A program made the translations under genes and the position numbers. Shown piece by piece: positions 13,640 through 34,771 of a stretch of DNA of 64,000 bases; positions within the stretch are counted from its first letter, which is position 1, and every line of letters starts with the position of its first letter. The stretch comes from Streptomyces albogriseolus (GTDB taxonomy: Bacteria; Actinomycetota; Actinomycetes; Streptomycetales; Streptomycetaceae): NCBI GenBank assembly GCA_014650475.1, contig BMVA01000014.1:1-64000 (forward strand). Reading direction: 5' to 3'. The notes under the pieces were generated by a model. It did no database searches and was not told the origin of the DNA. It saw nothing but the letters and a program-made list of their open reading frames with translations.

Positions 13640-13654
13640 TGGAAATCATTGTCA
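13640..13654. promoter_or_regulatory. Zur box 1 (ribosomal protein divergent promoter)
   Basis: TGGAAATCATTGTCA matches 13 of 15 positions of the Streptomyces Zur consensus TGAAAATCATTTTCA. It lies between the divergent L28-S14 and L33-L31-COG0523 units. On the + strand it is followed at once by TATAGT (13655-13660), a good -10 element, and then seven bases to the L33 ATG, so the L33 mRNA is probably leaderless. Zur bound here would cover the promoter. Confidence 0.85.
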
Positions 13655-13667: not shown

Positions 13668-13832
13668 ATGGCACGCAACGAGGTACGCCCGATCATCAAG
13701 CTCCGCTCCACCGCGGGAACCGGCTACACGTACGTCACTCGCAAGAACCGCCGCAACGACCCCGATCGCCTGGTCCTGCGCAAGTACGACCCGATCGCCC
13801 GGCGCCACGCCGACTTCCGCGAGGAACGCTGA
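13668..13832 (+). CDS. rpmG: 50S ribosomal protein L33, zinc-free (C-) paralogue
   Basis: 54 residues, [20 protein letters not shown]..., with no Cys, hence the zinc-independent form. No Shine-Dalgarno is visible upstream; instead a -10-like TATAGT ends seven bases before the ATG, which points to leaderless translation. It heads a plus-strand unit with L31 (44-base gap), the COG0523 relative and the S18 relic. Confidence 0.93.
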
Positions 13833-13876: not shown

Positions 13877-14131
13877 ATGAAGCCCGGGATCCACCCCGCC
13901 TACGGCCCCGTCGTCTTCCGCGACCGTGCCGCGAACTACGCTTTTCTGACCCGCTCCACCATGACCAGCGACAAGACGATCGAATGGGAGGACGGGGACA
14001 CCTACCCGGTGGTCGACGTCGAGATCTCGCACGTCAGCCACCCCTTCTACACGGGGACCGCCCGCGTTCTGGACACCGCCGGGCGGGTCGAGCGCTTCGA
14101 GCGCCGGTACGGCCGACGCGGAGCCAACTGA
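13877..14131 (+). CDS. rpmE2: 50S ribosomal protein L31 type B, zinc-free (C-)
   Basis: 84 residues, [16 protein letters not shown]..., with the type B features ([28 protein letters not shown]) and no Cys, so the zinc-binding CxxC is absent. GAGGACGCC upstream serves as ribosome site. Its stop overlaps the ATG of the COG0523-type gene. In other bacteria type B L31 displaces zinc-carrying L31 during zinc shortage. Confidence 0.95.
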
Positions 14132-15285
14132 TGCGGGACGAGACCGGACTGCCCGTCGTCATCGTCGCCGGGATCCACTCCGAGGCCCGCCGCGAGGTCG
14201 TGGAGCACCTCCTGCGCCTGGTACCCGGCAGCGTCGCCCTCCATCACGACCTGTCCACAGCGGCCGACGGCACCGTTGTGCGTCAGGTGCGCGACGCTTC
14301 GGGCGAGCTGTCCCGGGACGAGGCTCCCCTGGTCAACGACTGCGCGTGCTGCGCGCTGCGCGAGGACCTGGTCCCCGAGCTGCGACGGCTCGCCGACGCC
14401 GGCCTCACCCGGCTCGCCGTTGTCGAACTGTGGGACTCCGTCGAACCCAAGGGGATGGCCGAGGTCGTCGTCCGGCACGCCACCGACGCGGTCCGGCTCA
14501 CCAACGTGGTCACAGCGGTCGATCCGGCTCTCGTCCTCCCCTGCCTCGGCAACGGCGACGACCTGGCCGAGGTGGGCCTCGCGGCCACGGCCGGCGACCG
14601 GCGCACGGTCGGCGACACCTGGGCCAGGCAACTGGAGTACGCCCCCGTCCTCGCCGTCGTGGGGAGCGAGGACGCCGACGACGAGGACCGGGCGCTCCTC
14701 ACCCAACTCCACCCCACCGCCCGTCAGGTGAGCGCCGGCTCTCCGGAGCTCGCCCGACTGGCCTTCACCGGCTTCGACGCCGAAGCCGCCGCCGCGGCCC
14801 AGCACCCGGCCTGCGCCCTGCTCCCCCAGGACGCCGACGAGGCGGGTGTCACCACCTTCGTCTGGCGCCGGCACCGCCCGTTCCATCCCGAACGCCTCTA
14901 CGCGGCACTGGAAGACCTCTGCTGCGCCGCGGTCCGCAGCCGCGGACCGTTCTGGCTCGCGGACCGCCCCGACACCCTGCTCGCCTGGGACGCCGCGGGC
15001 GGAGCGCTGTGCGTGGAGAGCGCCGGCCCCTGGCTCGCCTCCCTGCCGGACGCCGCCTGGGAGATGGTCCCGCCCGTCCGCCGGGCGGCCGCCGCACTGG
15101 ACTGGCACTCCGAGCACGGCGACCGCTGCCAGCACCTCGTCTTCACCTCACCCGGCCTGGACCGCGACGGGCTCGCCCGGGTGCTGGAATCCTGCCTGCT
15201 GAGCGACGCCGAGTACGCGGCAGGCCCCGAGGCGTGGAGACGACTGCCGGCCGCCTTCGACTCCCTGCTCGATCCCGTCGCGTGA
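14131..15285 (+). CDS. COG0523 (CobW/ZNG1-like) relative with degenerate GTPase site
   Basis: 384 residues, coupled to L31 by a TGATG overlap. The metal motif CxCC of COG0523 metallochaperones is intact (Cys71, Cys73, Cys74 in NDCACCALREDL), and the C-terminal CobW_C region is present (FVWRRHRPFHPERLYAAL). The nucleotide site is not: where GxxGxGKT is expected the protein reads VVIVAGIHSEARRE, and the NKxD specificity motif is replaced by VVGSEDAD. The relatives deliver zinc to client proteins with GTP. This one may bind zinc without hydrolysing GTP, or may work in the Zur-controlled remodelling of ribosomes in another way. A family call is safe; the exact function is open. Confidence 0.85.
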   Translation: MRDETGLPVVIVAGIHSEARREVVEHLLRLVPGSVALHHDLSTAADGTVVRQVRDASGELSRDEAPLVNDCACCALREDLVPELRRLADAGLTRLAVVELWDSVEPKGMAEVVVRHATDAVRLTNVVTAVDPALVLPCLGNGDDLAEVGLAATAGDRRTVGDTWARQLEYAPVLAVVGSEDADDEDRALLTQLHPTARQVSAGSPELARLAFTGFDAEAAAAAQHPACALLPQDADEAGVTTFVWRRHRPFHPERLYAALEDLCCAAVRSRGPFWLADRPDTLLAWDAAGGALCVESAGPWLASLPDAAWEMVPPVRRAAAALDWHSEHGDRCQHLVFTSPGLDRDGLARVLESCLLSDAEYAAGPEAWRRLPAAFDSLLDPVA

Positions 15286-15480: not shown

Positions 15481-17262
15481 CTACGCCGTGGGCACGCCGT
15501 GTTCGGGCGGGGCGGTGTGGCCGAGGATGCGGTTGAGCGCGCTGCCGGGATCGCCTGTGAGGTCCTCCCAGGTTCCCTCTTCCGTGATGAGACCGTCCGC
15601 CAGGACGGCGATGCGGTCGGCGCGGCGGATGGTGGCGGGGCGGTGGGCGATGAAGATCGTCGTGCGGCTCTCCTGCCGCAGCGCGGCGGCGAGTTCGGCG
15701 TCGCCGGTGTTGTCCAGGTGGGCGGTGGACTCGTCGAGCACGAGGACGCGCGGTCCGGCCAGCAGCGCGCGGGCCAGGGCGATGCGGGCCCGCTGACCGC
15801 CGGACAGCGTGGCGCCTCGCTCGCCGACGAGCGTGTCCAGAGGGGCGATCCGGTCGACGCCGCACAGCCGTGCCGCCTCGGCCAGCGCCCGGTCGTCGGC
15901 CTCGGGCGCGGCGAGCCGCAGGTTCTCGGCGAGGGTGCCGTGGAAGAGGGGGGTGTCCTGTCCCACCAGGACCACCGCGCGCCGCAGTTCCGCGTCGTGC
16001 ACCTCCCTCACGTCCACGGGCTCGCCGTCGGCGGGCAGCAGCTGGACCTCACCGGCGGACGGGTCCCAGAAGCGGGCCAGCAGGTGGGCGCAGGTGGACT
16101 TGCCGGCGCCGGAGGCGCCGACGAGGGCGAGTGTCCGGCCGGGTCGGACGGTGAGGTCCACGCCGTTCAGCACGGGCTCGCCGCCGTAGTCGAAGCTCAC
16201 TCGGTGCAGCCGGACGCCCAGGGGTCCGGGAGGCAGGGGACGTGGAGCGGCGGGCGGCGGGGCGAGGGCGGGGGCCTTGACGGCCGCGTCGACGCGGGCG
16301 GCGGCGGCGCGCAGGGCCACGGCCTGGCTCAGGGCGCGGGCCGACTCCGCGACCGGGCCGAGGACGGACAGGGCCAGCGCCGTCGCGGCCGGCGCCCAGG
16401 CACCGTGCAGGCGTCCGGAGGTCACGGAGTGTGCCGCCGCAGCGACCACGCCGAGGACCGCCACCACGATGAGGACGTCACGGACGGCGGCGGCGACGGC
16501 CTCCCAGGTGGCCTCGGCGCGCTGGGCGTCGCCCACCTGCCGCCCCCGCTCCGCCAGCTTGCGGCGGCGTTCGGCCAGAGCGCCGAAGGCGAGCAGTTCG
16601 CGCAGCCCGTCGACGGTCTCCACCGTGTCCGCCGACAGCGCGGCCACGGCCGACCGGGTGCGGCCACCGCGTGCCGTGCGCGCGCCCGCGTCGACGAAGG
16701 GCGCCGTGGCGAGCAGGACGGCGACCGGCAGCACGGCCACCAGCAGCCACGGCTCCACCAGGGCCAGGAGTACCGAGCCCCCGGTGAACACCGTGCCCGC
16801 CGCGAGCAGCTGGGCGGTGGTGTGGGCGTAGAAGAACTCCAGCGCCTCCACGTCGGCCATGGCGGTGGCGGCGAGATCCCCGCTGCGGCGGCCGGCGACC
16901 CGGGCGGGCGCGCTGCGGGCCAGTCCGTCGAAGACGCGGACCCGCAGCGCGGCCAGCACCCGGTAGGCGAGGTCATGGGAGAGATCCATCTCCCGCCAGG
17001 TCATCAGGGCGCGTACGAGGACGAGGGCGACGAGCGCGGTGACGACGCCGGCCGTGGGGGCGCGCCCTTCGATGACGGCGGTGCCCACGGTGTGCGCGGC
17101 CAGGGTCACCAGCGCGGTGAGGGAGCCCTGTTCGAGAAGCGCGGCAACACAGGTGCGTGCCGTCATGGCACGGTGTGCCGCGAGGGCGGGCAGCAGGGCG
17201 CGCAGCGCGCCCCGGGCGGGGACGTCCGCGCAGGTGGCCGTGGGGCCCGTGACGGTGCTCAT
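15481..17262 (-). CDS. ABC half-transporter (permease-ATPase), RiPP operon
   Basis: 593 residues from ATG 17262, which overlaps the stop of the partner half-transporter (ATGA). Residues about 20-315 carry a six-helix ABC exporter-type membrane domain, and about 345-580 the ATPase with Walker A GASGAGKST, signature LSGGQRARIALARAL and Walker B VLVLDEST. It pairs with the CydD-like neighbour as a heterodimer. Export of the modified peptide is the simplest role, but heterodimers of this fold also import metallophores (IrtAB, YbtPQ), so direction is open. It is the last gene of the minus-strand operon that starts with the precursor peptide. Confidence 0.85.
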   Translation of the reverse strand: MSTVTGPTATCADVPARGALRALLPALAAHRAMTARTCVAALLEQGSLTALVTLAAHTVGTAVIEGRAPTAGVVTALVALVLVRALMTWREMDLSHDLAYRVLAALRVRVFDGLARSAPARVAGRRSGDLAATAMADVEALEFFYAHTTAQLLAAGTVFTGGSVLLALVEPWLLVAVLPVAVLLATAPFVDAGARTARGGRTRSAVAALSADTVETVDGLRELLAFGALAERRRKLAERGRQVGDAQRAEATWEAVAAAVRDVLIVVAVLGVVAAAAHSVTSGRLHGAWAPAATALALSVLGPVAESARALSQAVALRAAAARVDAAVKAPALAPPPAAPRPLPPGPLGVRLHRVSFDYGGEPVLNGVDLTVRPGRTLALVGASGAGKSTCAHLLARFWDPSAGEVQLLPADGEPVDVREVHDAELRRAVVLVGQDTPLFHGTLAENLRLAAPEADDRALAEAARLCGVDRIAPLDTLVGERGATLSGGQRARIALARALLAGPRVLVLDESTAHLDNTGDAELAAALRQESRTTIFIAHRPATIRRADRIAVLADGLITEEGTWEDLTGDPGSALNRILGHTAPPEHGVPTA

Positions 17263-18998
17263 GCGGCGAGTTCTCCTCGGTGGACGCGGCCGGCCTCGAC
17301 GAGCCGGGTGTAGACGCCGCCGGCCTCGACCAGACCGGTGTGGTCGCCGACGGCGTCGACCTGTCCCGCGTCGAGGACGACGATGTGGTCGGCGTGCCGG
17401 ACGGCGGCGAGCCGGTGGGCGACCACCAGGACGGTCCGCCCGCCGGCCGCCTTCAGCAGCTCCCGGACGATGTCCGCCTCGCGTCGTTCGTCGACCGCGC
17501 TGGTGGCCTCGTCGAGAACGAGGACCGGGGCGTCCGACAGCAGCGCCCGCGCGAGGGCGAGCCGCTGTCGCTGTCCGCCGGAGAGGGTGGCGCCCCGTTC
17601 GCCGAGCACCGTGGCGTAGCCGTCCGGCAGGGCGGCGATCTCGTCGTGAATCCCGGCCGCGCGCGCCGCCCGGGTGAGTTCGCCGTCCGTGGCGCCGGGT
17701 CGGGCCAGACGCAGGTTGTCGGCGATGGTGGCGTGGAACAGGTACGTCTCCTGCGAGACCACGGCGATGCCCTGCCGCAGCGAGTCGAGCGCGTACTCGG
17801 TCGTGGGGCGCCCGTCGAGGGTGATCCGCCCTTCCTGCGGGTCGTGGTGGCGCAGGAGCAGGGACAGCAGGGTCGACTTGCCCGCGCCGGACGGCCCGAC
17901 GATCGCGGTGGTCCGTCCCGCCCGCGCGGTGAAGGAGACACCGTCCAGGGCGGGTGCGGGAGCACCGTCGTACGTGAACCGGACCTCGTGGAAACGGAGT
18001 TCGGGCGGAGTGTGCCGGTGCGCGGGCGCCGTCGCGGAGTCGGGGACCGCCGGCTCGGCCGTGCGCAGGGCCGCCAGCCCGTCGGCGGCCGACACCCCGA
18101 GGTAGCCGGCGTGCCATTCCCGGGCGAGGTCGCGGACCGGGCGGAAGCACTCGGAGGCCAGCAGCAGCACCAGGTAGGTGCCGGCCGCGGTGGTGGATCC
18201 GGTGACGGCCGACCAGCACGCCAGGAGCGCGGCGGCGGCGGTGCCGCCCTGGACGGCGAGGTCGGTGATGCTGGTGTCGACCAGGGAGATCCGCAACTTG
18301 GCCACGGTGGCGCGGTGCAGGGCCGCGGACCGCTCCTCCAGGCGTGCGCGGGTGCGGCCGACGGCGCCCGCGGCGCGCAGCGCGGGCATGCCCTGGAGGG
18401 CCTCCAGGTAGTCGGCGCCCAGTCCTTCGTAGGTGTCCCAGTGTTCCTTTCCCCGGGCGGCGAGGAGCCGGTCCCAGGCGCGTGGCCCCAGCAGGGCAAG
18501 GAGCAGGGCGGGGACGAGTCCGAGGAGGGCCCGGGGTTCGACCACGGTGAGGACGGCGAGGACCAGGGGAGGTACCGCGAGGGTGACCAGGAGCTGGGGC
18601 AGGTGGCGGGAGACGTAGGCGTCGACGCCCTCCACCCCCTCGACCAGGGTGGTGCGGACGGCTCCCGCCCGCGCCGTGGTCAGGTACGCGGGCCCCAGCC
18701 GGCCCAGGTGGACGAGGAGTTCGTCGCGCAGTGCCACCCTGACCCTGGCCCCGGCACGGGTGGCGGTGCGCCGCTGCCACACGGCGAGTCCGGCGCGGGC
18801 GGCGACGACGGCGAGCACCGTGGCGAGCAACCACGGGAGTGGGCCGGTGTCACCGCGGGCCAGGGCGGCGAGCGCGAGGGCCAGCAGCACGGCCTGGGCC
18901 AGGTGGGTGAGGGTGACGGCTCCCTGCAAGAGGGTGGCCGCCAGCAGGGGACGCCGTGCGCGCATCGCGGCGCGGCGCAGCTCGGGGTGGACGATCAT
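17259..18998 (-). CDS. ABC half-transporter, CydD/IrtA-like, RiPP operon
   Basis: 579 residues. The membrane domain (about 20-315) has the CydD-like stretch YLTTARAGAVRTTLVEGVEG; the ATPase domain (about 335-570) has Walker A GPSGAGKST, signature LSGGQRQRLALARALL and Walker B VLVLDEAT. The ATG at 18998 overlaps the SagB-type gene stop and its own stop overlaps the next half-transporter start, so all three are translationally coupled. It forms the likely heterodimer partner of the downstream gene for moving the peptide product or its metal complex. Confidence 0.85.
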   Translation of the reverse strand: MIVHPELRRAAMRARRPLLAATLLQGAVTLTHLAQAVLLALALAALARGDTGPLPWLLATVLAVVAARAGLAVWQRRTATRAGARVRVALRDELLVHLGRLGPAYLTTARAGAVRTTLVEGVEGVDAYVSRHLPQLLVTLAVPPLVLAVLTVVEPRALLGLVPALLLALLGPRAWDRLLAARGKEHWDTYEGLGADYLEALQGMPALRAAGAVGRTRARLEERSAALHRATVAKLRISLVDTSITDLAVQGGTAAAALLACWSAVTGSTTAAGTYLVLLLASECFRPVRDLAREWHAGYLGVSAADGLAALRTAEPAVPDSATAPAHRHTPPELRFHEVRFTYDGAPAPALDGVSFTARAGRTTAIVGPSGAGKSTLLSLLLRHHDPQEGRITLDGRPTTEYALDSLRQGIAVVSQETYLFHATIADNLRLARPGATDGELTRAARAAGIHDEIAALPDGYATVLGERGATLSGGQRQRLALARALLSDAPVLVLDEATSAVDERREADIVRELLKAAGGRTVLVVAHRLAAVRHADHIVVLDAGQVDAVGDHTGLVEAGGVYTRLVEAGRVHRGELAA

Positions 18999-20125
18999 GC
19001 GGACTTCTCCTCGTCGGCGTGAGGGGTGCCGAGGGCCAGTGCGTGCACGACCCAGTCACGGCCCGGCTCGGCGCCGAGGGCGGCGCCGAGATCCGCCTGC
19101 TGCCAGGAGCCGACGGGCCGGGCCGCCAGCCCGTGGCGCTGGGCCGTGACATGGGCCAGGTGGACGGCGAAGCCGGCTCTCAGATGGGCGCGGCGGATGT
19201 GCGCGGGGCCGGCGTCCGTGGGGCAGCCGTGGGCGATCACCACGGCGCCGGCGTCCGCGAGCCACGCCTGGCCCGCCGCCCAGGCCGCGAGCGTCGGACG
19301 GGCGTCGCCGGACGCGTGGCGCCGCAGGGCCGTGCCCTCGGGAGCCAGTTCCATGAGGCCGGGCCGAGGCGGGCCGACCGCGGCGCACCAGCGCAACAGG
19401 CCGCCGTCCCCGGCTCGTTCGGCGGTGGCCAGGACCGCCCGTAGGGCAGCGCGGGGTGGAAGACCCGGCAGCGGTGGTGGGGCACTGCGACGCGCCAGCA
19501 GGTCGGCCGGGGCGGGCCGGTCCTCGTCCGCCGGGCGCCTCGGGCTCGGTCCGCCGGGCGGTGGGACGCGTACGACGGCCAGAGGGCTGCCGGTGCGTCC
19601 GTCCATCCGTACGTCGGGTTCACCGGCGCCCAGGACGCGGGCCGCCAGGAACAGCGCCGCGGCGGCGTGCCCGGTGTCCAGCAACAGGAGGGGCCAGGCG
19701 CGGTGGCCGTAGTGGGACACCGTGCGCTGTGCGGTGACGGAGAGCACGGCGGTCACGCCCGGCGGCGTGCCGTCGGCGGGCGGGCCGACGGGGTGGACGC
19801 GGTGGCGCAGCGGGTCGTACCCGTAGCGGCCGGGCGGCAGCGAGCAGCCGGCGCCCACGACCAGTTCGGTGTCCACCGGATGCAGCGCACCCGCGGAGGG
19901 GGTGGGCCTGAGGCGTCCGGAGGGGTCCGAGGCCGCCAGGGACAGACGCAGCAGGGTCCGCAGGTCGAGGTCCGCGGGGCCGGCCTCCGGAATCGGACGC
20001 GGCGGCCCCGGCCAGCGGCGGACGGCTGTCCCGGCGGGCGTGTCGGGGCCGGGGCGCTCCGGGGAGCGGGCCCGGGCGAGGGCGGCGGCCAGGCCCGTCG
20101 GCAGGTCCTCACAGTGGTCTTCCAC
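18995..20125 (-). CDS. SagB-type nitroreductase-fold dehydrogenase
   Basis: 376 residues, GTG start with GAGGG upstream. The nitroreductase/SagB pattern is seen in LLRLSLAAS, then RPTPSAGALHPVDTELVV (about 78-95, the flavin-binding region), and a C-terminal AVHLAHVTAQRHGLAARPVG stretch like the helix and loop that complete the FMN site. In azole RiPPs this FMN enzyme oxidises azolines made by the YcaO partner to azoles. Gene order (YcaO gene 7 bases upstream, transporters downstream) supports action on the 37-residue precursor. The middle is divergent, so activity is not assured. Confidence 0.8.
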   Translation of the reverse strand: MEDHCEDLPTGLAAALARARSPERPGPDTPAGTAVRRWPGPPRPIPEAGPADLDLRTLLRLSLAASDPSGRLRPTPSAGALHPVDTELVVGAGCSLPPGRYGYDPLRHRVHPVGPPADGTPPGVTAVLSVTAQRTVSHYGHRAWPLLLLDTGHAAAALFLAARVLGAGEPDVRMDGRTGSPLAVVRVPPPGGPSPRRPADEDRPAPADLLARRSAPPPLPGLPPRAALRAVLATAERAGDGGLLRWCAAVGPPRPGLMELAPEGTALRRHASGDARPTLAAWAAGQAWLADAGAVVIAHGCPTDAGPAHIRRAHLRAGFAVHLAHVTAQRHGLAARPVGSWQQADLGAALGAEPGRDWVVHALALGTPHADEEKSA

Positions 20126-20132
20126 ACGGCCC

Positions 20133-21512
20133 TCACATGTGCGGCGGAGGTGCCAGCGTGAAGTCCCGCGGCGCGCTCGGCGCGGTGGTGCGCCAGCCGC
20201 GCGCGACGGCGGCCTCGGCGAGGCGCGGGCAGCCGAAGTACCCGAAGGCGGCAGGCGCGTTGGGCAGCAGTCCGGAGACGAGGACCCGCGCGACGCGCAG
20301 CGCGGTCTCCGCCACGTCCTCGGTGGTGAGATCGAAGGTCATGACGCGGTGGCCGCCGCCGCGCAGCGCGCTCCTCAGGCGCTCCCGGCTGCCCGGCTCG
20401 ACCTCGGCGACGGACACCGTCCCGAGCGCGGGCTCGGTGAACCTCCGGGCCTCGGCCGCCATCCGTTCGTCGAGCCACACCTGCACGTGTGCTCCCAGGT
20501 CCCGCACGTGCTCGAACTGCTCGCCGCACACGTCGAGGTAGCGGCCGTCGGCCCGGTGGTCCAGGTAGAGCCCGCGGGCGAGCAGCCCGGCCTCGACGGC
20601 CTGGAACACCCAGCCGTCGGGGCCGGTCAGCCCCTGGGTGAAGACCCAGGTGTGAACGGCTTCGAGGACAGCCTTGCGGGCGGCGTCGGCCGGGTCGTAC
20701 TTGCAGGCGAACCCGGCGGCGTACAGGCCGAGGCGCGGGTCGTGGACGAGCGCGGCCATACAGGGGGCGAACTCCGAGCGCATCTCCACGATATGGACCT
20801 CGAGCGCGGAACCGGCGAGGTCGTCGGCGAGGCCGGGCACGCTCGCCGGGTCGATGCCCCGGGCCGGGCCGTCCAGGTGCCACCACAGTTCCAGGGCGTC
20901 GCGTTCGACGATCTCCAGCAGGCCGCGCTCGATCGCGTCGTCGAGGCCCTGTCCGGCGGCGATGCCGGCGTAGTTGAGGTGGTGGGTACGGGGCAGTGCG
21001 CGCAGGCCGCCCTGGCGCCAGTTGAGGTGGGTGAGCGAGACGGGTGCCCAGACCTCGACAGCGGTCCCGTCGGGCAGTCGTTCGGTTCCCCGTGTCCACA
21101 GCGCGGGGGTGTCGGCGGTGAACGGGCGGTAGGGGAAGCCCCCGCGGGCGTACTGCCAGGGTGCGTAGGCGGGCAGATCGGCCGGCCCGTACAGGCGCAG
21201 GCCCTTGTCCGCCAGTTCGGCGGCGGTGGCGCGCAGGGGCGCGTCCGGATGGCCGGGCGGCGGCACACGGTTGCCGCAGTAGCGCTCCATCCCCTCGGCT
21301 ATCGCGGCGACGCGGGCCTGCTCGGCGTCGCCGAAGGTGGTGCCGAGGGAGACCCGGTCGGCGGGCCACAGCCCGAGTCTGCGGGCGTCGGACACCTCGG
21401 CCGTGAGCGCGGTGTAGCGGGGCGGGGCGCCCGCGGGGTGCTCGACGGGCTTGACCTTGCGGACGATTCCGCAGACGGGGTCGACGAGCGCTTCCAGCGG
21501 CAGAGCCGTCAT
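20133..21512 (-). CDS. YcaO-domain RiPP maturase
   Basis: 459 residues from ATG 21512 (MTALPLEALVDPVCG). It has the YcaO ATP-binding core: the GTTFGDAEQARVAAIAEGMERY helix region and the signature AIERGLLEIVERDALELWW near residue 200. YcaO enzymes activate a backbone amide with ATP and make azolines, thioamides or amidines. The C-terminus is LAPPPHM, proline-rich but not the PxPxP seen in many azoline-forming YcaOs, so the chemistry is not fixed by sequence. The ATG overlaps the stop of the hydrolase gene. The partner with a leader-binding domain is encoded separately two genes upstream. Confidence 0.9.
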   Translation of the reverse strand: MTALPLEALVDPVCGIVRKVKPVEHPAGAPPRYTALTAEVSDARRLGLWPADRVSLGTTFGDAEQARVAAIAEGMERYCGNRVPPPGHPDAPLRATAAELADKGLRLYGPADLPAYAPWQYARGGFPYRPFTADTPALWTRGTERLPDGTAVEVWAPVSLTHLNWRQGGLRALPRTHHLNYAGIAAGQGLDDAIERGLLEIVERDALELWWHLDGPARGIDPASVPGLADDLAGSALEVHIVEMRSEFAPCMAALVHDPRLGLYAAGFACKYDPADAARKAVLEAVHTWVFTQGLTGPDGWVFQAVEAGLLARGLYLDHRADGRYLDVCGEQFEHVRDLGAHVQVWLDERMAAEARRFTEPALGTVSVAEVEPGSRERLRSALRGGGHRVMTFDLTTEDVAETALRVARVLVSGLLPNAPAAFGYFGCPRLAEAAVARGWRTTAPSAPRDFTLAPPPHM

Positions 21513-22990
21513 CGCAGGATCTCCTCGGCAGGATCGGTGGGGGCGGGACGGGACGGGAGGACGGGCAGGTTCAGCACCACGCTGTCCGGGTCGACCTCCC
21601 GCCGGGAGACGAGCAGCTGTTCCGCCGTGATCGGGTCGTCCCCGGTGTGGGGGTTGCGGGCGTGGGCCGGGAAGTGGTGTCCGGCGATCTCCAGGCGCAA
21701 CCGGGTACCGGTCCGGAGCCGGCGTGCGAGCCGGCCGAGTCCGACGGTGAAGGCGGCCTCCCGGCCGGCCGGTTCGGCACGCCGGACGACACCGAAGGCG
21801 AGCCGCTCGGCGGTTCCGTCCGGTGGGAGCGCGACGAGCCTGGCGGCCCAGTCGGCGGACGGGGTGTGGGCGGTGGCCCGCAGCCGCACACTGACGGGGC
21901 CGACGAGGTCGAGCGGCCGCGGCGACGGCGGTGTGACCAGCAGGCAGCGGTCGGGCGGGCCGTCCGCGGGGACGGTCAGGTCGTCGGAGCGGACGGGCCG
22001 GGCGGGGTCGGCGGTGAAGGCGGAGCCGTGCACGAGGTGCGTGCGGTGGGCGCGCGGTTCTCCCTCGGCGCCGGCGGGCAGCCATAGGTCGGCGCCGCCC
22101 AGCGCGAGTGCGCCGTGGTGGCCGGGGGCGAGGTCGCCGGTCAGGGCGCGGCGGGCCCAACGCACGTACAGTTCGCCGAGGTTCAGCCGGTGGGCGGGTC
22201 CCGCGTCAGGCCCCGGGGCAGCGGTCAGAGGGTGCCCCCAGGGGCCGAGCAGCAGACGCGCCGAGGATCCGCCCCAGGCGTGCCACAGGGCGACGGTCTC
22301 CTCGGTGAAGTGGTCGTGGTGGCCGCCCACCGCGAGCAGGGGCGGTCCGGCGTGCGCCGCCCGCGCCACGAGGTGCCCGCGGTCGGGCCGGCGCCACAGC
22401 CCCGCCCACGAGGGCAGTGCGCGTCCCAGCCGCTCGGGCAGGGCGGTCAACGGCAGGTGGGCGAGCAGGCCGGGGTCCTGGGCCAGGGCCTTGTCCAGCG
22501 CGCGTTCGTCGGAGTCGCGCCGGTCGCCGTGGGCGGCCCACCATCCGGCGCGGGAGAGCAGCCGTTCCACGCCGGACGCCTCGCGGGCCGTCTCCGCCGG
22601 GCCGAGGGCGGGCACGGCCGCGATGACGGCATCCGGCCGGGCGTCCCCGGGGGCGTCGAGGGCGAGGACGAGGGCGCAGTGGGCGGCGTAGGAGGCGCCG
22701 GCGGCCACCAGTCGCCCGTCGCTCCAAGGCTGTTGCCGGATCCAGCGGACGGCCGCTGTTCCGTCCGCGGTCTCGTACGCGTACGGGTGCCACTCCCCCG
22801 GCGACGCGAACCGCCCCCGCACGTCCTGGACGACGGCGGCGAACCCGCGGCGGGCCCAGCCACGCGCCTCGGCCTCGTGCCGGGCCCGGTCGTAGGGGGT
22901 GCGCAGCAGGACGGCCGGGAAAGGGCCGTCACCCGCCGGGAGACGTACGTCGGTGGCGAGTTCCCCCACGGCCGTGCTGAAGGCCGTCAT
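21509..22990 (-). CDS. CocE/NonD-type (X-Pro peptidase-like) hydrolase
   Basis: 493 residues from ATG 22990, which overlaps the stop of the leader-binding gene. The N-terminal alpha/beta-hydrolase domain has LRTPYDR, VVQDVRGRFASPGEW and the nucleophile elbow GASYAAH with Ser in the usual place; the C-terminal half is the beta-sandwich of PepX_C proteins (GRLARRLRTGTRLRLEIAG, ARNPHTGDD). Family members cleave X-Pro dipeptides or esters. In this RiPP operon it may remove the leader (which contains AP and DP) or trim the product. No signal peptide is visible, so it should act in the cytoplasm. Confidence 0.82.
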   Translation of the reverse strand: MTAFSTAVGELATDVRLPAGDGPFPAVLLRTPYDRARHEAEARGWARRGFAAVVQDVRGRFASPGEWHPYAYETADGTAAVRWIRQQPWSDGRLVAAGASYAAHCALVLALDAPGDARPDAVIAAVPALGPAETAREASGVERLLSRAGWWAAHGDRRDSDERALDKALAQDPGLLAHLPLTALPERLGRALPSWAGLWRRPDRGHLVARAAHAGPPLLAVGGHHDHFTEETVALWHAWGGSSARLLLGPWGHPLTAAPGPDAGPAHRLNLGELYVRWARRALTGDLAPGHHGALALGGADLWLPAGAEGEPRAHRTHLVHGSAFTADPARPVRSDDLTVPADGPPDRCLLVTPPSPRPLDLVGPVSVRLRATAHTPSADWAARLVALPPDGTAERLAFGVVRRAEPAGREAAFTVGLGRLARRLRTGTRLRLEIAGHHFPAHARNPHTGDDPITAEQLLVSRREVDPDSVVLNLPVLPSRPAPTDPAEEILR

Positions 22991-23841
22991 CCGTCCTTCT
23001 TCGGCGTCGGCGCGACGTCGGGCACCGGCAGCACGGGGTGCTCGGTGACGGTCAGCGTGCGCAGGTCCACCCGTCGCAGTCGGCGCCGTGCCGGGAGTCC
23101 CCCCGGGTCGGAGGCACCGGTGGCCCATCGGCGGAGGTCGTCGGCGAGCAGCGCCGCGAGCAGCGTGGCGGCGGGCGGGGCGAGCCGGACCGGGGCGCCG
23201 GAGGTGCGCGGTCCGCTCCAGTACGCGGCCAGTTCGCGGTGTGCGGGTGTGGCGGCGAGCCGACGGGACCGGACGTGCGCCGAGGTGACGTCCCCGGGAG
23301 CGACGGCCACCGGCTCGACGTACGCCTGCCAGCCCTCACGGTGGCAGCGCAGCCACGCGACGCCGTGCTCCGGCAGCCGGTCGGCGGCGTCCCACAGGCC
23401 GTCCGGCACGGGTCCGTCCAGGCACCACACGACCGCGCAGGGGTTTCCGTCGAGCAGGTCCTCGATGCCCGCCGGCGAGCTGCCTGAGGCGGTGACGGCC
23501 GGCGTCGTACGGGGCCGCGCGCCCAGGGCGGCCAGTTGTCCGGCGAGCGGTTCGGTCAGTACCGGGTCGCCGAGGATCCTGACGTCCCCGTGCGCGGCGG
23601 GCCACTCCGGGCCCGATGGCCCTTCCGCCAGATAACCGGCTTCTTCGAACGCCCGGACCACGCGGTCCAGCCCTTCGTCCACCAGGGCTGTGGTTCCCCC
23701 GGTGAGCAGGGAGAGCAGGGCGTCCTCGTCGGCGTCTCCTGTCCTGACGCTCAAGAACTCCCCCTCGGGGGTGCGGACGGCAAGCCCTCGCCCGGGCACG
23801 GGGACGACCTCGACACCGGGGACGAGTCGGTTACGGGACAC
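22987..23841 (-). CDS. TOMM-type leader-peptide-binding protein
   Basis: 284 residues. The start is GTG 23841 because a perfect AGGAGGA lies nine bases upstream; 74 earlier in-frame residues are out-of-frame precursor and leader sequence. The first 90 residues (RLVPGVEVVPVP, then FLSVRTG, ALLSLLTGGTTALVDEGL, FEEAGYL) have the strand-helix pattern of a RiPP recognition element as in SagC/E1-like proteins that bind the precursor and present it to a YcaO enzyme. The rest is a reduced ThiF-like region without an obvious ATP site. It follows the precursor gene after a hairpin and is coupled to the hydrolase gene. Confidence 0.75.
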   Translation of the reverse strand: MSRNRLVPGVEVVPVPGRGLAVRTPEGEFLSVRTGDADEDALLSLLTGGTTALVDEGLDRVVRAFEEAGYLAEGPSGPEWPAAHGDVRILGDPVLTEPLAGQLAALGARPRTTPAVTASGSSPAGIEDLLDGNPCAVVWCLDGPVPDGLWDAADRLPEHGVAWLRCHREGWQAYVEPVAVAPGDVTSAHVRSRRLAATPAHRELAAYWSGPRTSGAPVRLAPPAATLLAALLADDLRRWATGASDPGGLPARRRLRRVDLRTLTVTEHPVLPVPDVAPTPKKDG

Positions 23842-23875
23842 GGCGTTCCTCCTGTCGACGGGACCTGGGACGGGC

Positions 23876-23911
23876 GTGGGCCCGCCCGGAAGGTGCATCG
23901 GGCGGGCCCAC
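23876..23911 (-). terminator. attenuator hairpin between precursor and enzyme genes
   Basis: A perfect 13-bp stem (GTGGGCCCGCCCG and its complement) with a ten-base loop lies between the precursor gene stop and the leader-binding gene start. Partial termination here would give more precursor than enzyme mRNA, a common arrangement in RiPP clusters. Confidence 0.7.
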
Positions 23912-23935
23912 GGTCGAGGGTGGCCAGACCCTCGC

Positions 23936-24049
23936 TTACTCCTCGGTGTCCTCGAAGGGGTTCTCGACGAGCGCGTTGGAGTGAGAAGCCGAGTCGTGAG
24001 CCAGCTGACCCGGGTCGGCGATCGGCGCGAAGACCTGCTCGTTGTCCAT
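23936..24049 (-). CDS. RiPP precursor peptide, 37 residues
   Basis: Read directly from the minus strand: ATG 24049 with AAGGAGAG at a perfect distance, stop TAA at 23936. The peptide starts MDNEQVFAPIADPGQ, continues LAHDSASHSNAL and ends VENPFEDTEE. The N-terminal half has the F-x-x-I/L-type pattern of leaders bound by RiPP recognition elements; the C-terminal half holds three Ser (20, 22, 24), one Thr (35), two His and a strongly acidic tail, and no Cys. It is the first gene of the minus-strand operon with YcaO, SagB-like, hydrolase and ABC genes, 54 bases from a Zur box. Which residues form the core is unknown. Confidence 0.85.
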   Translation of the reverse strand: MDNEQVFAPIADPGQLAHDSASHSNALVENPFEDTEE

Positions 24050-24105
24050 GAACTCTCCTTCATCAGCAGGGAGATGCGGCGTTCGGTTGAGCGCCACGAC
24101 CCACC

Positions 24106-24927
24106 CTAATGAATCTGATTTTCATATTCTAGAGCCGCGATAGGGTGATCTGGGTAACACACAGGCCACCCCCCTTCCGGATCCTCACCGACCCGGCCCG
24201 CCACCTGCAGCACCTCCGCCAGCAACCCCGGCGTGACGACCTGCTTCGGCGCTCCGTCGGCCACCACACGGCCCTCCCGCAGGGCGACGATCCGCTCGGC
24301 GAAACGGGCCGCGTGGGCCAGGTCGTGCAGCACCATCACCACCGTGAGCCCGCGTTCCTCACGCAGACGCACCACGGTCTGCAGCACGTCGAGCTGGTGG
24401 TGCAGATCCAGGTACGTGGTCGGCTCGTCGAGCAGCAGGACCCGGGTGTCCTGCGCGAGCGCCATCGCGAGCCGGACACGCTGCCGCTCGCCGCCGGACA
24501 GCGCGTCGACGTCACGGTCGGCCCAGGCCTCCACCCCGACGTCGCGCAGCGCCCGGCGCACGACGGGGTCGTCGCCCTCGCGCAGCATGCCCAGCGGGCC
24601 ACGTGCCGCGTACCGCCCCTGACGGACGAGGTGACGCACCGTCATACCCGGCACGGCCGGGGCCGACTGGTGCAACAGGGCCACCCGCCGGGCCGTGGCG
24701 CGCCTCGAGAGCCGCGCGACGTCGTCCTCGCCGAGCAGCACCCGCCCTTCGTCGGGGTGCAGCAGCCCGGCGGCCAGCCGCAGCAGGGTCGACTTCCCGC
24801 AGCCGTTCAGGCCGATCAGGGCGGTCAGTTCGCCCGGCCGGACGGTCAGGTCGACGCCCCGCAGCACGGGCCGTCCGGGGTAGCCGAAGTGGACCCCCTC
24901 GACATGGATCCCCACGGACTCGGTCAT
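24106..24927 (-). CDS. FecE/FepC-type metallophore ABC ATPase
   Basis: 273 residues with Walker A GLNGCGKST, signature ALSGGERQRVRLAMAL, Walker B VLLLDEPTTYLDL and the switch His in VLHDLAHAARFA, the pattern of siderophore-importer ATPases. It is the third importer gene after binding protein and two permeases on the minus strand; a 20-base gap separates it from the permease gene. The last codons run into Zur box 2. With the neighbours it would power uptake of a metal chelate. Confidence 0.92.
   Translation of the reverse strand: MTESVGIHVEGVHFGYPGRPVLRGVDLTVRPGELTALIGLNGCGKSTLLRLAAGLLHPDEGRVLLGEDDVARLSRRATARRVALLHQSAPAVPGMTVRHLVRQGRYAARGPLGMLREGDDPVVRRALRDVGVEAWADRDVDALSGGERQRVRLAMALAQDTRVLLLDEPTTYLDLHHQLDVLQTVVRLREERGLTVVMVLHDLAHAARFAERIVALREGRVVADGAPKQVVTPGLLAEVLQVAGRVGEDPEGGWPVCYPDHPIAALEYENQIH
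24110..24124. promoter_or_regulatory. Zur box 2 (RiPP operon promoter)
   Basis: On the + strand TGAATCTGATTTTCA matches 13 of 15 positions of the palindromic Zur consensus TGAAAATGATTTTCA. On the minus strand it is followed immediately by TAGGGT (24108-24103), a plausible -10, giving a leader of about 45 bases to the precursor ATG. It touches the 3' end of the upstream ATPase gene, so the RiPP operon has its own promoter although it follows the importer genes on the same strand. Confidence 0.8.
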
Positions 24928-24947
24928 GCTCTGTCCTCACTTCGACG

Positions 24948-25955
24948 TCAGAACGTACGGCTCGGTGTGCGGCGCACCACGAGCAGCAGCAGCGCGGCGC
25001 CGAGACAGGCGGTGAGCGCCCCGACCGGCAGCGTGAGCCGCCCGGAGTCCAGCGCCGTCGCCAGCAGCCGCGAGGACAACTGCGCCGCCGCGTCGGCCCC
25101 GCACACCACCACCGCGCCTGTCAGAGCGGCACCGGGCAGGCTCCGGCGCAGGTCCGCACCGAAGACGGCCACGGCCAGATGCGGCACGAGCAACCCGATG
25201 AAGCCCAGCGCGCCGACGGCGGCAACGGCGCCGGCGGTCAGGGCCACCGCGCACAGCAGGGCCAGGGTCCGGGCCCGGTGAGCGGAGAGACCGGCGGCGA
25301 GGGCGATGTCGTCCCCGCAGCGCAGCAGGGTCAACGGCCCCGCCAGCAGCCAGGCGGCGACCCCCCAGACGAGCGCCCACGGCCACAGCAGGTGCCAGTG
25401 CTCCCACACCCGGCCCTCCGTGGTGCCCACCAGCCACTGCACGACGCTGCCGAGCTCACCCGGCTCCACGAGCAGCACCATGGCGGTGAGCCCGCCGAGC
25501 ACCGCCGACACCAGCACCCCGTGCACAGCGGTCTGCGCGGGATCACCGCGACCGCGGCCGGCGAGCAGCCACAGCAGCGCCGCTCCGGCACATCCGCCCG
25601 CGCACGCGGCGAGGACCACGGCCAGCGGCGCGTCCCACCCGGCGAGCCCCAGCGCGGTCGCGGTGACCGCGCCGAGGACCGCCCCCGGGGTCACGCCCGT
25701 CACCTCCGGCCCGGCGAGAGGGTTGCGCAGCGCCGACTGCAGGACCAACCCGGCCACGGCCAGGCAGGCGCCCGCGCCGAGGGCCACCAGCAGCCTCGGC
25801 AGACGGAGTTGGAACACGATGTGGCGCTCCGTCGCGTCACCGCCACCGTTGAGGACCTCCCAGACCACCCCCGGGGACATACCGCGCCCCGCCACCACCT
25901 CCACGGCGGCGCACACGACGGCCAGCGCCGCGAGAGCCGTGAAACGCCGGGTCAC
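24948..25955 (-). CDS. FecCD-family permease (second)
   Basis: 335 residues from GTG 25955 with GGAGG six bases upstream; the start overlaps the stop of the first permease gene (GTGA). It has the FecCD hallmarks: LRLPRLLVALGAGACLAVAG, LQSALRNPLAGPEVTGVTPGA, and the C-terminal GALGFIGLLVPHLAV coupling loop. About ten membrane helices are expected. It pairs with the neighbouring permease as a heterodimer of the siderophore-type importer. Confidence 0.92.
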   Translation of the reverse strand: MTRRFTALAALAVVCAAVEVVAGRGMSPGVVWEVLNGGGDATERHIVFQLRLPRLLVALGAGACLAVAGLVLQSALRNPLAGPEVTGVTPGAVLGAVTATALGLAGWDAPLAVVLAACAGGCAGAALLWLLAGRGRGDPAQTAVHGVLVSAVLGGLTAMVLLVEPGELGSVVQWLVGTTEGRVWEHWHLLWPWALVWGVAAWLLAGPLTLLRCGDDIALAAGLSAHRARTLALLCAVALTAGAVAAVGALGFIGLLVPHLAVAVFGADLRRSLPGAALTGAVVVCGADAAAQLSSRLLATALDSGRLTLPVGALTACLGAALLLLVVRRTPSRTF

Positions 25956-27130
25956 CGTACGTCCTCCGGTCCGGTCGTCCCGAGAGGCGGCGAGGGCGGA
26001 CCGCCGGGCCCGGGTCCGCCCCGGTGAACGGGCTGCGCCGCCCCGGCGGGAGGTGCGGCCGTGGTGCGCCGGGCCGCTGCCCCGCGACGGCCGCCCGACC
26101 GCATCAGCGCGACGCCGGCCGGCACGCCCAGCAGGGCCGTCCACGCGCCGGCCGGCGTCTCCACGGGTGCCAACGCCAGCCGGGCCGGGACATCGGCGAC
26201 CACCACGACGGCGGCGCCCCAGGCCGCCGACCAGGGGAGCCAACGCACCGCTCCCGCCGCGGGAGCGAACCAGCGGCTCAGATGCGGGGCGAGGAAACCC
26301 ACCCAGGCGACGGGCCCGCACACGGCCGTCACCGGGGCGATCAGCACCACGGCGATGGCCAGCGCTGCCAGCCGGGCGCGCTGAGCTCGCACACCGAGCG
26401 CCTCCGCGTCCTCGTCGCCCAGCCGCAGCACGGACAGCACCGGCGCGCACAGCACGAGCGCGGGCGCCGCGACGAGCAGCCACGGCCACAGGCCCGTCAC
26501 GTCGTCCCACGTCCGGGCGGAGAGGGAACCGAGCAGGTAGCGGTAGATCAGTTGGAGGTCCAACTGGTCGGCCATGACCATCAGCACGAGCAGGGCAGCC
26601 TGCAACGCGGCCGCCACCGCCGCGCCGGTCAGCAGCACGGCGGACGGACTTCGGCCGATCCCGGCGACCAGCAACGTGAGCCCGCCCCCCAGGGCGGCCC
26701 CTCCGATGGCCAACAGCGGCTGGACGGCGGCGGGCAGCGAGAAGGCCAGCACCAGCGGCGCGGCCACCCCCAGCGCGGCCCCGGACGACACACCCAGCAT
26801 CTCCGGCACCGCCAGCGGATTGCGCAGCGCCTCCTGGAGCACCAGTCCGGCCGCCCCCAGACAGGCCCCGGCGACCGACGCCAGCAGCAGCCGGGGCACG
26901 CGGAGTTCACTCACGACGATCCCGGCGAGGGTGGTGTCCCCCTCCAGGACGGCGGCGACCAGCCGGTGCGGGGGCACGTAGGGGGTGCCGAGGCTGAGCG
27001 CGCAGACCGAGGAGACGGCCAGCAGCACGGCCACCACCAGCGGTTGCCACCTCCGCGCACCGCGCGACGGCCGCTCTCCGCCCGCCGCGGCGCGATCGGC
27101 TACGGCGGGCACGGGCAGGGACGTCCTCAC
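25952..27130 (-). CDS. FecCD-family permease (first)
   Basis: 392 residues from GTG 27130, which overlaps the stop of the binding-protein gene (GTGA). Family motifs: LRVPRLLLASVAGACLGAAG, LQEALRNPLAVPEMLGVSSGA and VAWVGFLAPHLSRW. The last 45 residues are a Gly/Pro/Arg-rich tail not usual for the family, probably cytoplasmic. It forms the membrane channel of the importer with the second permease. Confidence 0.9.
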   Translation of the reverse strand: MRTSLPVPAVADRAAAGGERPSRGARRWQPLVVAVLLAVSSVCALSLGTPYVPPHRLVAAVLEGDTTLAGIVVSELRVPRLLLASVAGACLGAAGLVLQEALRNPLAVPEMLGVSSGAALGVAAPLVLAFSLPAAVQPLLAIGGAALGGGLTLLVAGIGRSPSAVLLTGAAVAAALQAALLVLMVMADQLDLQLIYRYLLGSLSARTWDDVTGLWPWLLVAAPALVLCAPVLSVLRLGDEDAEALGVRAQRARLAALAIAVVLIAPVTAVCGPVAWVGFLAPHLSRWFAPAAGAVRWLPWSAAWGAAVVVVADVPARLALAPVETPAGAWTALLGVPAGVALMRSGGRRGAAARRTTAAPPAGAAQPVHRGGPGPGGPPSPPLGTTGPEDVR

Positions 27131-28104
27131 CGCAGCGCGGCCGTGGCCTCGTCTAGCACGAGGCCCAGCGAACGGGTGCCGCGCCCCTTGGCCCACACCT
27201 CTGAGTTCACCTCGTGGACGTCACCGTTCTTCACCGCCGGAATCTTGCTCCAGAGCGGGTTCGCGGCGAGCTTCTCGGACAGCTTGCCCTCCGCGTCGCC
27301 GAAGCTCAGCGTCTCGACGAACAGCACGTCGACGTCCTTGGCGAGGATCTCCTCGAGACTGTAACTGCCCTCCACGCCACGGGACTTCCACGGGTAGTCG
27401 GCGATCTTGGGGAACAGGCTGGCGGCCACGTCACCTTCGGGCGTCGCGACGCCGAAGTTCTCGTCACTGCCGTAGATGATGAGCGCGGTCCTGTCGCTCG
27501 GGGTCTTCTCGGCCTCGGCGAGCTTGACCCGGAAGGCCCTCTCCGCCTTCTCCCCCTGGGCGGTGCGGCCGGTGAGCGCCGCGGTGTCGCGCAGGTAACC
27601 CACGCTGTCCTGCCACGTCTCGGGCTGCATGGCCCAGAACGTGGTCGCTCCCTTCAGCGCCGGGGCGAGCTTGCCGTGGGTGTCCCCGAGGCCAATCACG
27701 AGGTCGGGCTTGTGGGAGAGGATCGCCTCCACCTCCGGGGCGATGAAGCCGCCGGGGATGATGTCGACCTCCTTGGCCTTCTCCTCCCCCAGGAAGTCCG
27801 GGTGGGCGAGCACCGCGCTGTTGGTGGCGGTCGGGACGATGCCCAGTTCGGTGAGGATGTCGTCGCACAGGGCGAACAGGCAGACGATCCGCTCGGGCTT
27901 CTTCTCCAAGGAGACCTTGACGCCGTTGGTGTCGGTCAACTCCGTCGACGCCTTGATGGGTTCGACGGTCACCTCCGTCTTCGCCGCGGGCCTGGCCTTG
28001 TCGTTCGCGGACTCCTCGGAGGACGAGCCGCAGCCGACCAGGAGGGAACCCACCGCCGCTGCGGTGAGCCAGTTGCGGACGAATCTCGACGGTGAGCGCA
28101 GCAT
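27127..28104 (-). CDS. FepB/TroA-fold metallophore-binding lipoprotein
   Basis: 325 residues from ATG 28104 (CGAGGG upstream) with a lipoprotein signal ending in the lipobox LLVGC. The ligand-binding fold has the two-lobed pattern: PERIVCLFALCDDILTELG, LVIGLGDTHGKLAP, and the C-terminal DVLFVETLSFG. It contains a CLFALC pair of Cys and several His, and could bind metal directly or a metal chelate. First gene of the binding protein-permease-permease-ATPase operon, with Zur box 3 in front, so zinc or a zinc complex is the more likely cargo than iron. Confidence 0.88.
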   Translation of the reverse strand: MLRSPSRFVRNWLTAAAVGSLLVGCGSSSEESANDKARPAAKTEVTVEPIKASTELTDTNGVKVSLEKKPERIVCLFALCDDILTELGIVPTATNSAVLAHPDFLGEEKAKEVDIIPGGFIAPEVEAILSHKPDLVIGLGDTHGKLAPALKGATTFWAMQPETWQDSVGYLRDTAALTGRTAQGEKAERAFRVKLAEAEKTPSDRTALIIYGSDENFGVATPEGDVAASLFPKIADYPWKSRGVEGSYSLEEILAKDVDVLFVETLSFGDAEGKLSEKLAANPLWSKIPAVKNGDVHEVNSEVWAKGRGTRSLGLVLDEATAALR

Positions 28105-28150: not shown

Positions 28151-28165
28151 TGATAATCGTTTTCA
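28151..28165. promoter_or_regulatory. Zur box 3 (importer / propeller divergent promoter)
   Basis: TGATAATCGTTTTCA matches 13 of 15 positions of the Zur consensus. It lies in the 83-base region between the divergent starts of the metallophore-binding lipoprotein (-) and a cytosolic propeller gene (+). GATAAT (+, 28152-28157) and TATCAT (-, 28154-28149) are -10-like and overlap the box, so one bound Zur could silence both directions. Confidence 0.82.
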
Positions 28166-30686: not shown

Positions 30687-30772
30687 CTGTGTGTTCCTTT
30701 CCGTGCCGCCCGGTGGCGGCGGTGGGTGTGACGGCGTCGGCCCGTGTGCCGGCGGACAGGGGACGCCGCGGG

Positions 30773-32982: not shown

Positions 32983-33003
32983 GACGAGCGCCTCAGGCTT
33001 CTT

Positions 33004-33858: not shown

Positions 33859-33874
33859 GGCGAGGACACTACAA

Positions 33875-33889
33875 TGAAAATCATGTTCA
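33875..33889. promoter_or_regulatory. Zur box 4 (aztA/aztB)
   Basis: TGAAAATCATGTTCA matches 14 of 15 positions of the Zur consensus, the best in the window. It overlaps the start codons of aztA (ATG at 33874 or 33883). TACAAT (33870-33875) is a -10 that would start the + transcript at or near the ATG at 33883. Confidence 0.9.
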
Positions 33890-34617: not shown

Positions 34618-34771
34618 GGAGCACGGCAGCGTGGGACCACCCGCGGGCGCGGCTGGAGCGCACGAGCGCGCCACCCGCGGCCGCCGTCATGTTGCGTTCA
34701 GGATCGCGTCGCCACCGCTTCGCGCACCTTCCGTAGCGTTCACGGCGTCCGCATTCCTACCGAGGAGCAAC

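Follow-up and report, generated by a model that had tools for sequence, protein, structure and literature searches.

Among ribosomally synthesized and post-translationally modified peptides (RiPPs), methanobactin is known to carry a metal, namely copper, and is made by enzymes different from those of the cluster described here; we know of no RiPP zincophore. Metallophore clusters under the control of Zur have been described in other chemical classes: according to the accessible accounts, the coelibactin cluster of Streptomyces coelicolor is a biosynthetic cluster under Zur that has been read as encoding a zincophore, but it is non-ribosomal and thus no RiPP cluster, and the metallophore genes for ethylenediaminedisuccinic acid ([S,S]-EDDS) in Amycolatopsis japonicum, also under Zur and found through their Zur sites, lead to a compound that is not a peptide of YcaO chemistry. 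Here, we analysed a stretch of 64,000 nucleotides from Streptomyces albogriseolus (positions 1–64,000 of contig BMVA01000014.1, assembly GCA_014650475.1; hereafter the window), which carries a RiPP cluster of the streptamidine (ami) type with Zur-type boxes upstream of both its precursor gene and its importer genes.

The streptamidine cluster was described in S. albidoflavus J1074 by Russell et al. in 2021 (PMC8442711, MIBiG BGC0002115). According to the accessible text of that paper, to which all our statements on it refer, the same gene set occurs in >90 clusters, streptamidine-type clusters were found in >230 species, and both the product and the need for amiB–amiE and amiF1–amiF4 were shown in S. 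albidoflavus or by heterologous expression. Metal import was proposed by these authors on the basis of the fecBCDE-like genes and then tested; no antimicrobial activity was detected, a part in signalling or development was suggested, and the role of streptamidine was stated as unknown. The main text of the paper does not mention Zur, and we found no report of Zur control of streptamidine clusters in the literature searched. In the accessible text of a study that mined genomes by regulator sites, including those of Zur in S. coelicolor, streptamidine is not named (PMC12161575), nor does the term RiPP appear in that of a paper dealing with metallophores of non-ribosomal origin (PMC12971057).

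The cluster in the window resembles that of J1074 in its precursor family, in its gene set and listed gene order, in Ser3 and Ala4 of the core and in the ALV motif, and differs from it in the core sequence (HDSASH instead of HLSATH) and in its location between rpmG2-rpmE2-cobW and azt. We consider it very likely, on the basis of sequence comparisons, that the ami cluster is controlled by Zur. As the original prediction, made from the letters of this DNA, had supposed, zinc control is strongly supported, because the boxes are conserved across relatives, the neighbouring genes are related to zinc and an independent consensus yields a concordant count. The best explanation that we can offer, to which we assign a probability of roughly 60%, is that ami is a Zur-repressed RiPP cluster, switched on in zinc shortage, whose peptide captures or delivers zinc and is re-imported. 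As far as we have searched, both the apparent place of the streptamidine family in the Zur regulon and the existence of transport-only derivatives of the cluster are new.

A complete streptamidine-type cluster

Profile searches and gene positions delimit a complete ami cluster on the minus strand at 15481–28104, with amiA–amiE and amiT1/amiT2 preceded by the importer genes, in an assembly of 8.07 Mb and 66 contigs. The features of the cluster, in window coordinates, are as follows (ABC, ATP-binding cassette).

15481..17262, minus strand: amiT2, exporter-like ABC half-transporter (profile matches; start taken from the translation)
17259..18998, minus strand: amiT1, exporter-like ABC half-transporter (profile matches)
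18995..20125, minus strand: amiE, SagB-like dehydrogenase (nitroreductase family PF00881, 33.7 bits, above cut-off; SagB profile TIGR03605, 52.1 bits, below its cut-off of 78.4)
20133..21512, minus strand: amiD, YcaO enzyme (PF02624, 140.8 bits, above cut-off)
21509..22990, minus strand: amiC, CocE/NonD-type hydrolase (PF02129, PF08530 and TIGR00976; CocE/NonD 184.9 bits, above cut-off)
22987..23841, minus strand: amiB, leader-binding/E1-like partner protein (TIGR03882, 25.6 bits, below its cut-off of 36.9; position and role according to PMC8442711)
23875..23934, minus strand: two attenuator-like hairpins between amiA and amiB (fold z −3.4)
23936..24049, minus strand: amiA, streptamidine-family precursor of 37 amino acids with core HDSASH (NCBIfam NF040714; core kept across loci)
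24106..24927, minus strand: amiF ATPase, nearest to FecE but below the cut-off of that model (profile)
24948..25955, minus strand: amiF FecCD permease (PF01032 on the open reading frame 24948–26510)
25952..27130, minus strand: amiF FecCD permease (PF01032)
27127..28104, minus strand: amiF1, siderophore-type substrate-binding lipoprotein (PF01497)

The AmiA peptide, MDNEQVFAPIADPGQLAHDSASHSNALVENPFEDTEE, is free of Cys and recurs unchanged in the relative L004; its ribosome-site region and start read AAGGAGAGTTC-ATG. It matches the NCBIfam model NF040714 (streptamidine family RiPP) with 64.5 bits at a cut-off of 40, and its core and follower, HDSASH-SNALV, contain the Ser3 and the ALV motif of the family. 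The genes amiF1–amiF4, amiA–amiE, amiT1 and amiT2 are all present as in the published cluster, as judged from profiles and positions against the text of the paper (PMC8442711), with AmiB and the SagB profile of AmiE scoring below cut-off, and AmiD is 96% identical to that of a Streptomyces relative. It is thus practically certain from these comparisons that the cluster belongs to the streptamidine family. A new RiPP family was considered and rejected, because precursor family and gene set are those of streptamidine, and the core agrees as well. The original prediction had proposed a small precursor gene, with a Cys-free core, at the head of genes for a leader-binding protein, a CocE-type hydrolase, a YcaO protein, a SagB-like enzyme and two ABC half-transporters, all of which is borne out by sequence, profiles and positions, and the kinship with streptamidine that it had suspected turned out, in the precursor search, to be full membership. 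Its description of the precursor as unlisted does not hold, since NF040714 covers it and a Rhodococcus plasmid record already annotates amiA as 'streptamidine family RiPP'. The hairpin stretch downstream of amiA, also present in the relatives L062 (z −4.2) and L013 (z −3.2), would suit a precursor made in excess over its enzymes.

Zur-type boxes in the window and the genome

Sites were sought with two patterns, the consensus tGaNNatSatNNtCa obtained for S. coelicolor Zur by chromatin immunoprecipitation (Choi et al., PMC5472717) and an older, independent actinobacterial znuA consensus. Four Zur-type sites in the window lie at starts of genes considered here.

13640..13654, unstranded: Zur-type box 5′ of rpmG2-rpmE2-cobW (consensus scan)
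24110..24124, unstranded: Zur-type box 5′ of amiA, TGAAAATCAGATTCA on the minus strand, with 1 mismatch to tGaNNatSatNNtCa
28151..28165, unstranded: Zur-type box lying between orf28188 and the importer operon divergent from it; no other site in the genome matches the znuA consensus perfectly
33875..33889, unstranded: perfect Zur consensus site in the divergent start region of aztB and probable aztA (consensus scan)

Sites with ≤2 mismatches number 17 in the window, against a mean of 1.95 (standard deviation 1.23) in shuffled sequence. With the znuA consensus, 13 sites with ≤1 mismatch were counted in 8.07 Mb (5 with the reversed pattern as control), three of which fall within window positions 13640–33889 and two just 5′ of a znuA; by arithmetic, 0.03 such sites would be expected in this interval, which was chosen after the boxes had been seen. 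The amiA box, with two mismatches to the older consensus, is not among the 13. The original prediction had placed a Zur box and a −10 element directly upstream of the precursor gene; the box stands, with its single mismatch, and the −10 element, a TAGGGT hexamer starting one base past the box, was recognized by eye, while the sigma-70 scan called no promoter in the window at the stringency used (the terminator scan was empty too). By inspection, −35-like and −10-like hexamers seem to flank the amiA box, a placement that suits a repressor.

The genome encodes four FUR-family proteins, and a FUR-family gene lies ~2 kb beyond the znuA that carries two znuA-consensus sites. Palindromes of the 7-1-7 type, to which Zur boxes belong, are common to the Fur family, and the boxes might therefore be read by another of its regulators, the cluster then answering to a different metal such as nickel or iron. 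Boxes of the same kind precede znuA, rpmG2-rpmE2-cobW and azt in this genome, and the consensus used was derived for Zur in Streptomyces itself (PMC5472717), so that we regard control by another regulator as quite improbable. No iron-type box was found in the window or in the amiA upstream regions. Control of the kind exerted on iron siderophores was rejected: the window contains no DmdR1/IdeR-type site within ≤3 mismatches of the consensus, and the amiA upstream regions deviate from the same consensus by 8–10 positions, much like random windows (6–12).

Conservation of the boxes across relatives

The relatives compared were the best 80 of 160 loci found, 74 of them with a readable amiA; six short loci (L008, L035, L075, L076, L077 and L083) start past the place where the gene is expected. 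All of the 74 are titled Streptomyces except L040, titled Microtetraspora glauca. Together with the window they make up a set of 75, in which the 200 bases 5′ of amiA were scanned. The best site, located at −75 to −129, has no mismatch to tGaNNatSatNNtCa in 38 loci, one in 27, two in 6 and three in 4, and a site with 0–1 mismatch occurs in 65 of the 75 upstream regions compared to 25 of 1500 random 200-base windows, sampled from these very loci and perhaps including real boxes. The loci share ancestry and hence are not independent. Sites with ≤1 mismatch usually come as a pair, one 5′ of amiA and one 5′ of amiF1: two were found in 49 of the 65 full-length loci, one in 13 and three in 3, and the box 5′ of amiF1 has 0–1 mismatch in 65 of 68 loci. 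In an alignment of 47 dereplicated sequences of the 75, the box columns hold 1.49 bits compared to 0.49 and 0.46 in the flanking 30 bases on either side; rows were anchored on the best site, which favours the box (for L133, the position was set by hand), and equally anchored random windows reached a mean of 0.51 bits and a maximum of 0.54 in 20 repeats, with flanks of 0.28 and 0.27.

Outside Streptomyces, a box with ≤2 mismatches precedes amiA in 16 of 18 loci. Within 150 bases, boxes were found in 13 of 15 loci (13 genomes), compared to 1.9% among 6696 random windows and 1.5% among 7000 shuffles, a count in which L141 was left out of the run (14 loci used) yet counted as a miss. Three extra loci, L170–L172, have amiA boxes with 1, 2 and 2 mismatches. 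These non-Streptomyces loci have another gene order and differently placed importer genes, and their AmiD, where found, is 55–65% identical. In many of them, amiA and a divergent homologue of orf28188 have the box between them; in L132 and L142, the divergent importer bears a box of its own, and the Rhodococcus plasmid copy carries TGACAATCGTTTTCA 5′ of amiA.

Several observations weigh against Zur control. Sites with ≤1 mismatch are not rare, with 101 in the genome (12 with the reversed pattern); it is conservation and neighbourhood that carry the case. Ten of the 75 amiA boxes carry 2–3 mismatches, L133 and L141 (2 of the 18 non-Streptomyces loci) show only sites with four, and two of five further loci from the genus of the window, L135 and L136, have three. 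L135 repeats L048, just as L156 repeats L041, and one duplicate stands within the set of 101 loci used for the counts of neighbouring genes.

Zinc-related neighbours and orf28188

In the window, the ami cluster is flanked by two Zur-type loci, rpmG2-rpmE2-cobW and azt, and adjoined by a divergent gene.

13669..13832, plus strand: rpmG2, Cys-free L33 paralogue (named by inspection of the sequence)
13877..14131, plus strand: rpmE2, Cys-free L31 paralogue (named by inspection of the sequence)
14131..15285, plus strand: cobW/COG0523-type GTPase (PF07683, PF02492)
28188..29387, plus strand: orf28188, without Pfam family (homologue in 90 of 101 loci)
29469..33861, minus strand: aztD, aztC, aztD-like and aztB, zinc importer and chaperone genes (NCBIfam AztD 499 bits, AztC 383 and AztB 370, above cut-off; AztD-like 63, below)
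33874..34617, plus strand: ABC ATPase, probable aztA, start approximate (translation of the open reading frame)

A review, in its accessible text, counts rpmG2, rpmE2 and yciC, a COG0523 gene, as members of the Zur regulon of S. coelicolor (PMC6103462). Near the ami cluster, rpmE2 was seen in 18 of 101 loci as well as in the window, lying upstream of amiF1 in 12 of the 18 and downstream of amiT2 in 6; in L074, it has a third orientation. The adjacency of ami and rpmE2-cobW apparently came about on more than one occasion. An AztD match was obtained in 5 of the 101 loci, most of which end too near to show it.

This neighbourhood bears on two further explanations. The adjacency to zinc genes could be a matter of chance and the cluster an ordinary streptamidine cluster without a metal role, in keeping with the negative metal tests of its discoverers (PMC8442711); such a reading is very improbable given that the amiA and amiF1 boxes are conserved in several families and also where zinc neighbours were not seen. 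Alternatively, the peptide might act on ribosomes in zinc shortage, in the manner of klebsazolicin, with which streptamidine has an amidine ring in common (PMC8442711), the Cys-free L33 and L31 paralogues being part of the same response. The presence of rpmE2 near the cluster would fit this idea, but the gene was not seen in 83 of the 101 loci, some of them short, a siderophore-type importer would be left unexplained, and streptamidine lacks klebsazolicin-type activity according to its authors (PMC8442711); we rate it as the least credible of the alternatives.

The product of orf28188 is probably the amiX of Russell et al., judged by its position. The 11 loci without a homologue comprise eight short or cut ones together with L132, L142 and L143. 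In the alignments, His40, His84, His147 and His184 are invariant and further His residues nearly so. Searches of Pfam (E 0.001) and NCBIfam (1e-6) gave no match for the protein, and its best hit in a profile search of PDB (E 0.0033) covers only part of it. Kinship with AztD was rejected after profile comparison with a two-sequence AztD alignment (hhalign probability 1.2%).

Loci that retain only transport genes

The family profile of AmiF1 matches siderophore-binding proteins in PDB, YfiY (3tny) being the best. For AmiT1 and AmiT2, the best 60 of 265 and of 262 PDB profile matches, respectively, are led by ABCB-type transporters, with CydC among those of AmiT2. As a model for this pair, we consider IrtAB and YbtPQ, exporter-fold ABC importers of which IrtAB imports iron-loaded siderophores, as described in the accessible literature; the relationship considered here is that of the general ABC family.

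Of 295 genomes from the genus of the window, 39 have amiA, 42 have an AmiF1 orthologue and 38 have both; genome G507 has amiA and no AmiF1 match at E 1e-50. Two genomes, G402 and G510 (counted, like others, as Streptomyces on account of a genus shared with named relatives), have the box, AmiF1–AmiF4, AmiT1 and AmiT2 (79–91% identical) and no amiA–amiE (loci L152 and L153). The matched parts of the ATPase and of AmiT1, which usually have amiA–amiE between them, end within a few bases of each other, and AmiD has no match anywhere in either genome. With 95% DNA identity across 11.8 kb, the two loci are counted as a single event. AmiF1 without amiA was also recorded in G409, where a contig end makes the case uninformative, while G568 holds a decayed copy without a box.

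A second instance comes from family f17, in which 19 of 200 genomes have amiA and 16 encode a near relative of the AmiT1 of genome G384. In G384 itself (L143), amiA is broken and AmiB–AmiE are unmatched; in G283 (L169), neither orf28188 nor AmiA–AmiE were matched. Of the two, G384 was the one searched for AmiD genome-wide. Both retain the ATPase, one FecCD permease, AmiT1 and AmiT2, and the old amiA box now leads into AmiT1. The binding protein of f17 is not matched by AmiF1 even in intact clusters of this family. G384 and G283 share a genus and may represent one event. In all, the transport-only state was seen in four genomes, which belong to two families. In G384, the broken amiA favours a loss of the biosynthesis genes. 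The retention of the transporters under a Zur-type box without the peptide suggests that AmiF and AmiT act on something from outside the cell.

A proposed role in zinc acquisition

According to the explanation that we favour, zinc-loaded Zur would repress the ami cluster and zinc shortage would switch it on. AmiB and AmiD would modify the AmiA core and the hydrolase AmiC would free its N-terminus, releasing a short amidine peptide with two histidines, here with the first residues His-Asp-Ser; in products of this family, a six-membered amidine is expected between core residues 1 and 2. The peptide would leave the cell and capture or deliver zinc. Either the free peptide or the complex that it forms with zinc would be taken back via the FecBCDE-like importer AmiF, and AmiT1/AmiT2 would be a further transporter, perhaps one that also serves uptake. 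We infer Zur itself as the repressor, the capture of zinc and the import step. We regard a role in zinc acquisition as probable, whereas for the mature peptide itself chelating zinc we would give slightly less than even odds.

Two boxed operons, the zinc neighbours and the transport-only derivatives speak for the peptide zincophore put forward in the original prediction, while the published work on streptamidine speaks against it, and we retain it as a proposal. By liquid chromatography–mass spectrometry, streptamidine bound none of seven metals, zinc included; it was negative in the iron chrome azurol S assay, and the ΔamiD mutant behaved like the wild type under metal starvation (PMC8442711). 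Moreover, streptamidine was obtained from S. albidoflavus and from the heterologous host, and the main text mentions no zinc starvation for its production (PMC8442711). Our own data add to these objections: profiles did not set AmiT1/AmiT2 apart from exporters, the pair is not universal, with no match of their own in L132 and L142, and the transport-only state would also fit the uptake of some substrate that is no zinc chelate. The negative metal tests could possibly reflect functional overlap with znu and azt, the synthesis of another product when zinc is scarce, or the assay conditions.

The same evidence could be accommodated by a peptide that is Zur-controlled and does not chelate, serving as a diffusible signal of zinc starvation or as a recycled public good that is exported, re-imported and heard by non-producers. 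Streptamidine neither bound metals nor killed microbes, and its authors proposed signalling or development; furthermore, production was lost upon deletion of the importer, as a loop dependent on import might give (PMC8442711), and the transport-only genomes would fit listeners of this kind. Considering that metal supply accounts more simply for a siderophore-type binding protein, for FecCD permeases and for the direct link to genes of zinc uptake and zinc sparing, we hold this explanation to be unlikely, yet deserving of attention.

Returning to zinc acquisition, AmiE was reported as essential although streptamidine shows no oxidation (PMC8442711), which leaves room for another product. We tentatively envisage, at somewhat worse than even odds, that streptamidine-type clusters represent the first zincophore system of ribosomal origin: the amidine-capped peptide would be shared as a public good by zinc-starved actinobacteria, pirate relatives would keep the Zur-boxed importer and the exporter-fold pair working in reverse, and the metal-binding form would perhaps be a product that is larger, oxidised or confined to zinc starvation, the known streptamidine being a fragment of it. 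Such a product would account for the otherwise puzzling requirement for the dehydrogenase AmiE. The Zur boxes at both key promoters, the zinc neighbours and the transport-only operons make the role of streptamidine directly testable and indicate zinc shortage as the condition in which to look for the authentic product. Should the peptide carry zinc, it would count as a zincophore of the RiPP class.

Variation among streptamidine-type precursors and loci

Across the class, NF040714 matches were obtained in 19 of 394 genomes and 9 of 137 genera. Core units were collected by the motif SNALV-x-NPF, and the sample thus covers precursors of this type, with the more divergent ones (motif B of PMC8442711) lying outside it. 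The 100 units, two of which stem from duplicate loci, have the cores HDSASH (41), HLSATH (28), HLSASH (10), HASATH (10), HASASH (9) and THSAGH (2). Ser3, Ala4 and His6 are invariant and position 2 is variable; every unit contains two His residues, the second residue being His where the first is Thr. The THSAGH core, in which the first His is shifted to position 2, belongs to L132 and L142, loci in which AmiB, AmiE and orf28188 had no match either. In the precursors of L127, L128, L130 and L138, two core–follower units stand in tandem, e.g. two copies of HLSATH-SNALVENPFD. The locus of G507 mentioned above (L156) has amiA–amiE and amiT1/amiT2 without adjoining AmiF importer genes, and a single genome, G081, harbours three loci with streptamidine-type precursors (L139, L140 and L141). 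In the genome of the window, two more YcaO matches lie elsewhere (G000:C43:1694-2602 and G000:C13:201860-202144), and a phytase gene adjoins the azt genes at window positions 34631–36088.

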